From: Sphingopyxis sp. FD7
Lineage (GTDB): Bacteria; Pseudomonadota; Alphaproteobacteria; Sphingomonadales; Sphingomonadaceae
Length of the DNA stretch: 64,000 nucleotides
Reading direction: 5' to 3'
Assembly: GCF_003609835.1 (NCBI RefSeq)
Contig: NZ_AP017898.1
Span: 868,001-932,000 of the forward strand
In this document: piece by piece, positions 32,613 to 52,994 of the stretch
Numbering within the stretch: the stretch's first letter is position 1
Layout of the letters: each line of letters begins with the position of its first letter
Made by a program: the position numbers and the translations under genes
The notes under the pieces: model-generated
Database searches by the model: none
What the model saw: the letters and a program-made list of their open reading frames with translations, nothing else
What the model was told of the DNA's origin: nothing

Positions 32613-34322
32613 TCAGGCGCCGTTGGCGGCGCTGAGGATCGCGCGGACGCTGGCCGTCGCGACGTCGGTGTCGAGGCCGCAGCCGAACAGGCTCTTCCCG
32701 TCGGCGGTGCGGCATTCGACGTAAGCGGCCGCCTGAACATTGCTGCCCTGGCCGATCGCGTGCTCGCTGTAATCGACGATGTCCATGACCGGGCCGCCCG
32801 ATTCGGCGAGCGCGGCGATGACGCTCGACATCAGGCCGTTGCCGCGGCCGCTGACGCTGCGTTCCTGGCCGTCGATGCGGAGGACTCCAGCAAAGATGCG
32901 ACTGGCCGTGGGTGCCCCTCCACCACTTCGTGGCCCCCCTCCCCGTTCCGGGGAGGAATGGCTTTCGGACCAGTCGACGAGCTGGAAGCGTTTGGCGTCG
33001 GTGGTCAGATAGGCGCGCTCGAAGGCGTGCCAGATGTCCTCGGCGCCGAGTTCGCGGCTCGTTTCGTCTGCCAATGCCTGTACGATGTGGCTGAAGCTCG
33101 CCTGCATTTTCTTGGGCAGTTTCAGCCCCTTGTCCTGTTCGAGCACCCAGGCGACGCCGCCCTTGCCCGACTGGCTGTTGACGCGGATCACCGCTTCATA
33201 GCTGCGCCCCAGGTCGGCGGGGTCGATGGGGAGATAAGGGACTTCCCAGCGTTCGTCATTCTGGCGCTCGCGCGCGGCGAAGCCCTTTTTGATCGCGTCC
33301 TGATGGCTGCCCGAAAAGGCGGTGTAGACGAGCGCGCCGCCATAGGGGTGGCGCGGGTGGACGGGGAGCTGGTTGCAATATTCGACCGTCGCGATGACCT
33401 CGTCGATATTCGAGAAGTCGAGGCCGGGGTCGACCCCCTGCGTGTACATGTTGAGCGCGATGGTGACGAGGCAGGTGTTGCCGGTGCGCTCGCCATTGCC
33501 GAACAGGCAGCCCTCGACGCGGTCGGCGCCCGCAAGCAGGCCGAGTTCGGCCGCCGCGACGCCGGTGCCGCGGTCGTTGTGGGTGTGCAGCGAGATGATC
33601 GCGCGGTCGCGGTTCGGCAGGTTCTTGGCGAAATACTCGATCTGGTCGGCGTAGATGTTGGGCGTCGCCGCCTCGACCGTCGCGGGGAGGTTGAGGATTA
33701 TCGGGTTGTCGGGGGTGGGGGCGAGGATGCCCATCACCGCTTCGCACACCTCGATGCTGAAATCGAGCTCGGTGGTCGAGAAGCATTCGGGGCTGTACTG
33801 GAAACGCCAGTCGGTGCCGGGGAGGCGCGCGGCATTGTCGCGCAGCTGCTTCGCGCCGTCGATGGCGATCGCCTTGATGTCGGCCTTGTCCATGCCGAAG
33901 ACGATCTTGCGCCACGCCGGTGCGAGCGCATTATAGACGTGGACGATCGCGGCGCGGGCGCCCGCGAGGCTGTCGAAGCTGGTGCGGATGAGGTCGGCGC
34001 GGCTTTGCGTCAGCACCTGCGGCGTGACATCGTCGGGGATGCGGCCCGAGCGGACGAGGCCCTGGATATAGTCGAAATCGGTCGCGCCGCTGGCGGGAAA
34101 GCCGACCTCGATCTCCTTGAACCCGGCCTTCACCAGCAGGTCGAAGAAGCGCGTTTTTTTCTCGGCATCCATCGGGTCGATCAACGACTGGTTGCCGTCG
34201 CGCAGGTCGGTCGACAGCCAGATGGGGGCGCGGGTGATCGTGCGCGCGGGCCATTCGCGGTGGGCGAGCGGAACCTGCGGAAAGGCGCTATATTTGACCG
34301 AGGGGTCAGGGAGCATGGTCAT
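32613..34322 (-). CDS. leuA: 2-Isopropylmalate synthase
   Basis: 569 residues. It condenses 2-oxoisovalerate and acetyl-CoA, the first step of leucine synthesis. The catalytic TIM barrel has LSTDLRDGNQSL near residue 36, GFPASGATDFDY and the metal motif HTHNDRGTG. The C-terminal regulatory LeuA domain (allosteric leucine binding) follows from about 430, with SGRGNGLMSSV. Inside it, residues 456-470 are encoded by an inserted palindromic repeat (32913-32958). Two ATGs (34322 and 34316) are possible; neither has a clear SD. A leucine-rich leader peptide precedes it. Confidence 0.95.
   Translation of the reverse strand: MTMLPDPSVKYSAFPQVPLAHREWPARTITRAPIWLSTDLRDGNQSLIDPMDAEKKTRFFDLLVKAGFKEIEVGFPASGATDFDYIQGLVRSGRIPDDVTPQVLTQSRADLIRTSFDSLAGARAAIVHVYNALAPAWRKIVFGMDKADIKAIAIDGAKQLRDNAARLPGTDWRFQYSPECFSTTELDFSIEVCEAVMGILAPTPDNPIILNLPATVEAATPNIYADQIEYFAKNLPNRDRAIISLHTHNDRGTGVAAAELGLLAGADRVEGCLFGNGERTGNTCLVTIALNMYTQGVDPGLDFSNIDEVIATVEYCNQLPVHPRHPYGGALVYTAFSGSHQDAIKKGFAARERQNDERWEVPYLPIDPADLGRSYEAVIRVNSQSGKGGVAWVLEQDKGLKLPKKMQASFSHIVQALADETSRELGAEDIWHAFERAYLTTDAKRFQLVDWSESHSSPERGGGPRSGGGAPTASRIFAGVLRIDGQERSVSGRGNGLMSSVIAALAESGGPVMDIVDYSEHAIGQGSNVQAAAYVECRTADGKSLFGCGLDTDVATASVRAILSAANGA
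32913..32958. repeat. Palindromic repeat inserted in the leuA coding sequence
   Basis: The bases CCCTCCACCACTTCGTGG and CCCCGTTCCGGGGAGG are those of the sphingomonad 'cccctccaccac' repeat (compare 60362-60480). Here they are read in frame as a Pro/Gly/Ser-rich insert (SSPERGGGPRSGGGAP) in the regulatory domain of LeuA. Confidence 0.75.
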
Positions 34323-34457
34323 GGGATGAAAACTTCTTCTTCGGGTGGTTGCGTCAGTGTCGATCGGACCCTTGAGCGGGTGGCCGCGACAGCTGCGCAG
34401 CCAGTGTCACGCCCAAGGGCGTGTAAGTCGCAGAAGAAGAAGAGCGGCGGTGCGCAT
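34323..34457 (-). promoter_or_regulatory. leuA leader with possible attenuator structure
   Basis: The minus-strand RNA between the leader peptide and leuA can fold on itself. CUUCUUCUUC (the Leu codons, 34442-34433) is fully complementary to GAAGAAGAAG (34342-34333), which ends 10 bases before the leuA AUG. Inside that loop CCCUUGGGC (34418-34410) pairs with GCUCAAGGG (34376-34368), 9 bp with one G-U. No GC stem with a long U run is seen, so regulation of translation start seems more likely than termination. Confidence 0.6.
34407..34457 (-). CDS. leuL: leu leader peptide (leucine-rich, 16 residues)
   Basis: Reads MRTAALLLLRLTRPWA and stops at TGA (34407). Four adjacent Leu codons (CTT CTT CTT CTG) and a fifth CTT follow within three residues. 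CTT is rare in this genome (CTG and CTC dominate), as expected of a stalling sensor. AGGG lies 7 bases before the ATG. It lies 84 bases before leuA, in the same direction. It is too short for gene finders and was found by reading the sequence. Confidence 0.75.
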   Translation of the reverse strand: MRTAALLLLRLTRPWA

Positions 34458-34530
34458 CGGCGCCCTAGTGATGCAAAATGTCGTGCTTGGCAAGGGGGGA
34501 GTGCGAAAATTGCGTGGGTGGCCACCCTTT

Positions 34531-34621
34531 CGTCATCCCGGGCTTGACCCGGGATCCCGCTTCTTGAGGCTCGCGCTGCTTTCGACATCAAGCGGGACCC
34601 CGGATCAAGTCCGGGGTGACG
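34531..34621. repeat. Palindromic intergenic repeat (family E)
   Basis: Left arm CGTCATCCCGGGCTTGACCC, right arm CCCCGGATCAAGTCCGGGGT. About 50 bases lie between. It stands between leuA's leader and the rhodanese gene. The arms share 'GGATCAAGTCCGGGG' with the end of the repeat at 52885-52994. Confidence 0.8.
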
Positions 34622-52884: not shown

Positions 52885-52994
52885 CGTCATTGCGAGCGGA
52901 GCGAAGCAATCCCCAGCTATCGACCTCGCGCCATGCTGAAAGCTGGCGACTGCCGCGTCGCCCCGGATCAAGTCCGGGGCTCGTCGCAATGACG
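52885..52994. repeat. Palindromic intergenic repeat, family C/E chimera
   Basis: Left end CGTCATTGCGAGCGGAGCGA and right end TCGTCGCAATGACG are family C; the segment CCCCGGATCAAGTCCGGGGC before the right end is that of family E (34531-34621). Lies between ftsB and pdhA. Confidence 0.75.

Follow-up and report, generated by a model that had tools for sequence, protein, structure and literature searches.

A conserved leader element upstream of leuA in Sphingopyxis and other Alphaproteobacteria, probably a translational leucine attenuator

The window analysed here is a stretch of 64,000 nucleotides from the genome of Sphingopyxis sp. FD7, in which leuA lies on the minus strand (32613..34322) and encodes a type-2 2-isopropylmalate synthase of 569 aa that scores above the cut-off for both TIGR00970 (771 bits) and NF002991. 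Upstream of leuA and on the same strand, a leader peptide ORF, MRTAALLLLRLTRPWA with its stop included, occupies 34407..34457. Its ATG is at 34457 and its TGA stop at 34409-34407, leaving exactly 84 nt between the stop and the leuA ATG at 34322. The initial annotation of this DNA had placed a 16-codon leader 84 bases upstream of leuA and proposed two pairings of its RNA, and the coordinates of the leader on the minus strand and of both pairings proved right to the base. It had also called the CTT codons of the leader rare. Codon use in 29 genes of the window showed that CTT is indeed uncommon, with 8.5% of Leu codons, but that CTA (4/1356) and TTA (1/1356) are far rarer; CGA, a codon on which the annotation did not comment, makes up 3.6% of Arg codons. 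Within leuA itself, about 45 nt are inserted in frame (window 32912-32960, minus strand); the insert resembles a palindromic repeat, CATTCCTCCCCGGAACGGGGAGGGGGGCCACGAAGTGGTGGAGGGGCACC, and is read as SHSSPERGGGPRSGGGAP. The longer match (1707 versus 1662 nt) is common to only a few close relatives.

A promoter for the leader is predicted on the minus strand, with a -35 element TTGCCA at 34488..34493 and, 17 nt after it, a -10 element CACTAG at 34465..34470 whose first base is 13 nt upstream of the leader AUG. Among 75 distinct Sphingomonadales leaders, 43 have TTGxCA-like hexamers that start 36-38 nt upstream of the AUG, 35 of 39 that have a CATAGG-like hexamer carry it 12-16 nt upstream of the AUG, and an SD-like sequence upstream of the leader is found in only 2/75. 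Judging by this promoter spacing, transcription throughout the order probably begins at the leader AUG or next to it, which would make the leader itself leaderless. Farther upstream, between a rhodanese-like gene and the leuA leader, are two inverted GC-rich palindromes, CCCCGGACTTGATCCGGGGTCCCGC ... GCGGGATCCCGGGTCAAGCCCGGGATGACG (window 34538-34621), of a type that recurs between sphingomonad genes, and one like them is located near 52978.

A lack of conservation of the leader or of its pairing in close relatives had been named in advance as the outcome that would speak against the proposal. We collected the DNA upstream of leuA at 159 loci from Sphingopyxis, Novosphingobium, Sphingomonas, Erythrobacter and their relatives, and found both the leader and the pairing to be conserved, the leader in 135 distinct upstream regions. 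Nearly all 159 loci have a Leu-rich leader upstream of leuA. The encoded peptide varies with genus: Sphingopyxis has LLLLRLTRPWA, Novosphingobium LGLTLRLIRPWA, Erythrobacter LLRLMRPWA and Sphingomonas LLLRLTRP-stop. Two loci, L051 (titled Arthrobacter sp. TPD3018) and L079 (titled Actinobacteria bacterium 21-64-8), have a sphingomonad-type leuA, 71-72% identical to that of the window, together with a sphingomonad leader, and their organism names look wrong.

A near-invariant part of the leader is the core CTG-CGA-CTT-A (in general form CTN-CGA-CTT-A; 34424..34433, minus strand), which presumably provides the sensor codons nearest to the inner helix described below. By motif, CGACTTA followed by CGCCC is present in 157/159 Sphingomonadales loci, and the remaining two have one base changed. 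The synonymous positions of the core are fixed as well, which implies a constraint on the RNA or on codon identity beyond that on the peptide alone. No obvious pairing partner for CGACTTA was found. We considered that it might be a genome-wide binding site and rejected the idea because CTNCGACTTA occurs only twice in the genome, the second time by chance in an unrelated place. Two leaders carry more than one such motif: the very short leader MAFRLTALRLS (L187) has CGA-CTT-A twice, and MLRLTTLRLIG (L161) has CGA-CTG-A as well as CGA-CTT-A. This arrangement suggests that the CGA-CTT-A dicodon may itself be functional.

The outer pairing, which we call P1, consists of 10 bp of perfect complementarity, CUUCUUCUUC : GAAGAAGAAG, between the Leu codons of the leader and the ribosome-binding region of leuA. 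Its 5' (anti-SD) strand, CTTCTTCTTC, lies in the Leu codons at 34433..34442, and its 3' strand, GAAGAAGAAG, at 34333..34342 (both minus strand), with its last base 10 nt upstream of the leuA ATG at the position of the ribosome binding site. In the 146 sequences compared, the 3' (leuA) strand of P1 is most often found at -18 to -11 relative to the AUG, the SD position, and the leader strand centres on the codons just upstream of CTT. P1 differs in sequence between genera: most Sphingopyxis have CUUCUUCUGC : GCAGAAGAAG, a Novosphingobium has CUCGACUGG : CCAGUCGAG, Altererythrobacter-like genomes have CGUAACG : CGUUACG and some Sphingomonas have CUUCUCGG : CCGAGAGAG. The initial annotation had taken the Leu codons to be the blocking strand. 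The presumed blocking strand lies in these codons at the present locus but is not always the Leu run in the class as a whole, where only about 41% of P1 leader nucleotides are inside Leu codons.

The coevolution of the two P1 strands was assessed by an alignment-free test in which each leader was duplexed with its own leuA start and with the starts of other species, using 20,000 permutations. In Sphingomonadales (n=55 after dereplication) own duplexes averaged -15.7 kcal/mol against -12.6 kcal/mol for swapped ones (z=-8.1), and in other Alphaproteobacteria (n=65 after dereplication) -17.5 against -15.0 kcal/mol (z=-6.5), with 0/20,000 permutations attaining the observed mean in both cases; phylogeny is not modelled explicitly in this test, and dereplication and negative windows serve as the guard. 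These control windows, placed just upstream of the SD and in the first coding bases, showed no effect (z -0.5 to -1.5). Folding gave a consistent picture, with P1 present in the MFE structure of 65/75 sphingomonads and 47/69 other sequences; P2 accompanied it in 59 and 46 of them, respectively. For the window RNA from the leader AUG to leuA, P1 appears in both the MFE and the centroid structure (z=-3.65 versus shuffles).

Nested inside P1 is a second helix, P2, of 9 bp, in which CCCTTGGGC (34419-34411) pairs with GCTCAAGGG (34377-34369), exactly as had been described. Its extended strands are CCCTTGGGCG, within the leader ORF at 34410..34419, and CGCTCAAGGG at 34369..34378, both on the minus strand, and the 5' strand begins 6 nt past CTT in the layout CTT-ACA-CG|CCC.... 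Within Sphingomonadales P2 pairs at 9/9 positions in 123/133 distinct sequences and at 8/9 in nine more, with compensatory changes such as UUGGGC/GCCCAA, UUAGGC/GCCUAA and UUAGGG/CCCUAA. RNAalifold chose P2 unprompted from a 74-sequence alignment, with 10 pairs of which four are changed on both sides. The cells of P2 are paired at 98.0% and double-change cells number 27 as against 5.5 in shuffles, and slid versions of the helix pair at 20-62%. The conservation test that the initial annotation had set was thus clearly passed, with a near-invariant core, coevolution of leader and leuA start in P1 and compensatory changes in P2. In the window sequence itself P2 is absent from the MFE structure; forcing it costs 4.9 kcal/mol and it loses to a hairpin H1 and other pairings. 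H1 (CACGCC-CUUG-GGCGUG; 34408..34423, minus strand) belongs to the MFE structure of the window RNA, excludes P2 and leaves P1 intact. We rejected H1 as the main alternative structure because its outer pairs are broken in many sequences (79% of its cells are paired), and we retain it as a possible feature of Sphingopyxis, outside which its support is weak. Inside P2 lies a further hairpin, P3 (GGCTGCG...CGCGGCC in Sphingopyxis; 34382..34402, minus strand), which is variable in sequence and length, the loop between the P2 strands measuring 21-45 nt within the order.

To see how far the element extends we used R1, a covariance model of P2, and R2, a broader covariance model. With strict filters, which make the figure a lower bound, R1 matched at least 97/201 Sphingomonadales genomes with one match each. 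Outside the order 20/22 R1 matches with E below 0.01 lie directly upstream of type-1 leuA (FDTTLRDGEQSPG) in other families. R2 found the element in 81/289 alphaproteobacterial genomes, with a single match in all but one, and its matches in a phylum sample were confined to Alphaproteobacteria (17/150). A LeuA motif follows within 420 nt in 71/72 non-redundant matches outside the initial set, and the window genome has no significant match besides the leuA leader. Two weak matches (L253 and L254) were discarded as they fall within coding DNA. Across the class the element is mostly found upstream of the other, bacterial-type (type-1) LeuA. The core there is usually CTT-CGA-CTT-ANN-CGC-CCC-TGA with P2 as CCCCUGARCG : CGUUCAGGGG, and some lineages have a plain Leu run instead, such as CTTCTTCTCCTTCTTAGCTGCCCCTAG. 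Transfer of the element together with type-2 leuA from Actinobacteria is unlikely since most of the class-wide matches precede type-1 leuA. Six loci from other Alphaproteobacteria with type-2 leuA (L162, L169, L170, L173, L175 and L178) have two tandem Leu-rich ORFs upstream of leuA, one about 300 nt upstream (..LLLRLTSPVL-stop, with a strong hairpin over the stop) and one about 150 nt upstream (..LRLIGGPRA-stop), several of them with CGACTTA in both ORFs; this is possibly a two-stage version of the same control. The conservation of the leader, P1 and P2 across the order and the class shows that the element is not due to chance, and these three features and their tie to leuA are well supported. 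The element is real, had been described correctly, and is far wider than the single sequence could reveal.

How might such an element work? We think it probable that it acts in cis to attenuate the translation of leuA in response to charged tRNA-Leu. Transcription would begin at the leader AUG. When leucine is plentiful, which would be the default state, a ribosome would complete the short ORF and leave at the stop in or just after the 5' strand of P2. On the free leader the 5' strand of P1 could then pair with the leuA ribosome binding site and block leuA translation, with P2 holding both P1 strands near each other. When leucine is poor the ribosome would pause on the Leu codons, chiefly at the CTN-CGA-CTT-A core, where its footprint would cover much of the P1 5' strand and abut P2. 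P1 would thus be prevented, the leuA SD exposed and LeuA made. P2, just downstream of CTT, may also slow the ribosome there; the spacing between CTT and P2 is the distance at which a helix meets the mRNA entrance of the ribosome. We infer the stall, the response to leucine and the control of translation initiation. The prediction of leuA start accessibility adds a constraint, in that it rises from 0.45 with a free leader to 0.57 with a ribosome on the leader and shows no difference between a ribosome stalled at Leu and one at the stop (0.574 versus 0.575). The latter values agree because both states keep the ribosome on or past the leader, so that the switch must rest on the duration of leader occupancy. 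Against the attenuator model are its requirement that the leader, once translated, be free of ribosomes for most of the time, the energetic cost of P2 in the window sequence itself, the finding that only 61% of the P1 leader strand is within the footprint of a ribosome with CTT in its A site, and the Streptomyces coelicolor mutants discussed below. Sequestration of the SD by the C strand of P2 alone was also considered and rejected, as the unchanged predicted accessibility between stall and stop indicates that this is not the blocking strand.

Several other mechanisms could be imagined for a Leu-rich leader in this position. Transcription attenuation of the classical kind, which ends at an intrinsic terminator like that of the E. 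coli leu leader, would agree with the Leu-rich peptide and with the mutually exclusive hairpins H1 and P2. No intrinsic terminator or terminator-like site was found in the leader region of the window, however, in agreement with the initial annotation, which had seen no GC stem with a U run. Only 3/146 sequences show a U-run downstream of P2, counted as 5 or more T within 8 nt, and a search of Rfam at gathering and relaxed thresholds gave no relevant match, including to Leu_leader RF00512. The missing U-run fits a translational rather than an intrinsic-terminator mechanism and largely refutes classical attenuation at this locus, making it the least credible of the readings we weighed, with hardly any chance of being correct. 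The main rival is Rho-dependent transcription attenuation, where leader translation and P2 would decide on Rho loading between P2 and leuA and P1 would be minor. In Sphingomonadales the spacer from P2 to the SD is rich in C (0.38) and poor in G (0.18), and the terminator-less leader peptide of actinobacterial cys operons has been interpreted in this way (PMC1262725). Yet other members of the class show only a slight bias of this kind (C 0.30, G 0.24), the spacer is short, with a median of 47-51 nt to the AUG, and the coevolution of the leader codons with the leuA ribosome binding site would be left unexplained; we regard this mechanism as unlikely, while granting it more weight than any other rival.

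Two further possibilities concern what is recognized in the leader. The RNA could be a structure bound by a regulatory protein with the peptide being incidental, as was put forward by the authors of the LEU element (PMC1262725), and the conservation of CGACTTA at synonymous positions with no obvious pairing partner would agree with this. An ORF that stays open, in frame and Leu-rich across the order and beyond is harder to reconcile with it, the core shares the reading frame of the Leu run, a feature that binding of a protein would not by itself require, and P1 is conserved in complementarity only and not in sequence, so we consider such a protein improbable. Arrest by the nascent peptide, in which a conserved C-terminus (RLTRPWA in Sphingopyxis) would stall the ribosome on leucine or another signal, draws on the near-fixed RLTRPWA of Sphingopyxis and its close relatives. 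But the Sphingomonas leader ends at RP, other Alphaproteobacteria have LRL-x-R-P or LLLLSCP, the Arg is missing in several lineages, and P2 and the core account for the peptide end at the RNA level; its likelihood appears slighter still than that of protein binding. Translational leucine attenuation, as the initial annotation had proposed, is thus the reading that we favour, on the basis of the conservation of leader, P1 and P2, the coevolution and the absence of a U-run. The principle itself is not new (PMC1262725).

These results bear on the control of leuA, the first committed enzyme of leucine synthesis, which has been largely undescribed in Alphaproteobacteria, whose members include symbionts, pathogens, phototrophs and degraders. 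They point to one RNA element, open to testing and with no Rfam family, that precedes leuA in at least 81 of the 289 genomes sampled. A literature search, with Vitreschak 2004 outside its reach, returned no description of the element in Alphaproteobacteria. From an evolutionary point of view one may speculate that this is an ancient translational leucine attenuator of Alphaproteobacteria and Actinobacteria, where the sensor codons are the anti-SD strand and CGA-CUU-A, an Arg codon decoded by I-A wobble before Leu and 6-8 nt upstream of a stable helix, would form a built-in pause that is hypersensitive to low Leu-tRNA. We hold this wider idea to be possible but somewhat doubtful.

Among known systems, Leu_leader RF00512 is a transcription attenuator of gammaproteobacterial leu operons. 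The element shares with it the Leu codons of a leader peptide as sensor and mutually exclusive RNA pairings, and differs in that there is no intrinsic terminator, the leuA SD itself is sequestered, and the covariance model does not match. In the drug-inducible ermC and cat leaders a stalled leader ribosome frees the SD of the downstream gene. By prediction and coevolution, pairing of the leuA leader likewise sequesters a downstream SD, but the presumed signal is leucine shortage at the codons and not a drug with the nascent peptide, and it is the coding sequence of the leader that serves as anti-SD strand. Within the same class, leader peptides control amino acid genes in the alphaproteobacterial ilvB and trpE attenuators (Vitreschak 2004, as cited in PMC1273637), which in contrast are transcription attenuators of other operons, and the S. 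meliloti trpL is leaderless (PMC10117765).

The closest relative in design is the LEU element upstream of actinobacterial leuA described by Seliverstov, Putzer, Gelfand and Lyubetsky in 2005 (PMC1262725), whose Leu-rich leader forms a base stem with the leuA SD through its Leu codons and which lacks a terminator. An ORF with a Leu codon run upstream of leuA, the same base stem and no obvious terminator are all found here, and the leader is probably leaderless, as is S. lividans LeuL1, MRFGLLLLSCRGEGL, which is also without terminator (PMC8079986). Its 2005 description was confined to Actinobacteria and gave the LEU element a conserved pseudoknot within the base stem, with a protein suggested as the effector (PMC1262725). 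The covarying part here is a nested inner helix, P2. The leuA leader of a Microbacterium (L191) folds into a 10-bp P1 enclosing an 11-bp P2, the same topology, with the inner helix starting a few nt past CUUA. Rhodobacterales-like leaders share CTTCTTAGCTGC with actinobacterial leaders, which as a sign of homology between some Alphaproteobacteria and Actinobacteria is suggestive only. The alphaproteobacterial element differs in having the core CTN-CGA-CTT-A in most genomes, a P2 of CCCUUNGGC : GCCNAAGGG or CCCCUGARCG : CGUUCAGGGG, and a place before both LeuA types, and the R1 covariance search gave no match to the actinobacterial leuA loci L189-L192.

The comparison revives the question of 2005 as to whether leucine is sensed through the codons of the LEU element or by way of a protein. 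Mutations of the leuA leader codons in Streptomyces coelicolor behaved unlike the prediction of classical attenuation (as cited in PMC1262725), and because of these mutants the 2005 authors doubted codon sensing (PMC1262725). Since the Leu codons are also the anti-SD strand, replacing them alters sensor and structure together, which makes such mutants hard to interpret and may explain their behaviour; the compensatory pairs listed above allow the two roles to be separated. Taken together, the principle was known from the actinobacterial LEU element (2005), which has the same base stem, and the alphaproteobacterial form is a class-wide variant of this little-studied kind. What is new is the coevolution test, the presence before both LeuA types, the near-fixed CTN-CGA-CTT-A core 6 nt before P2 and the probably leaderless leader. 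In its leader, base stem and topology, the alphaproteobacterial element works like the LEU element.
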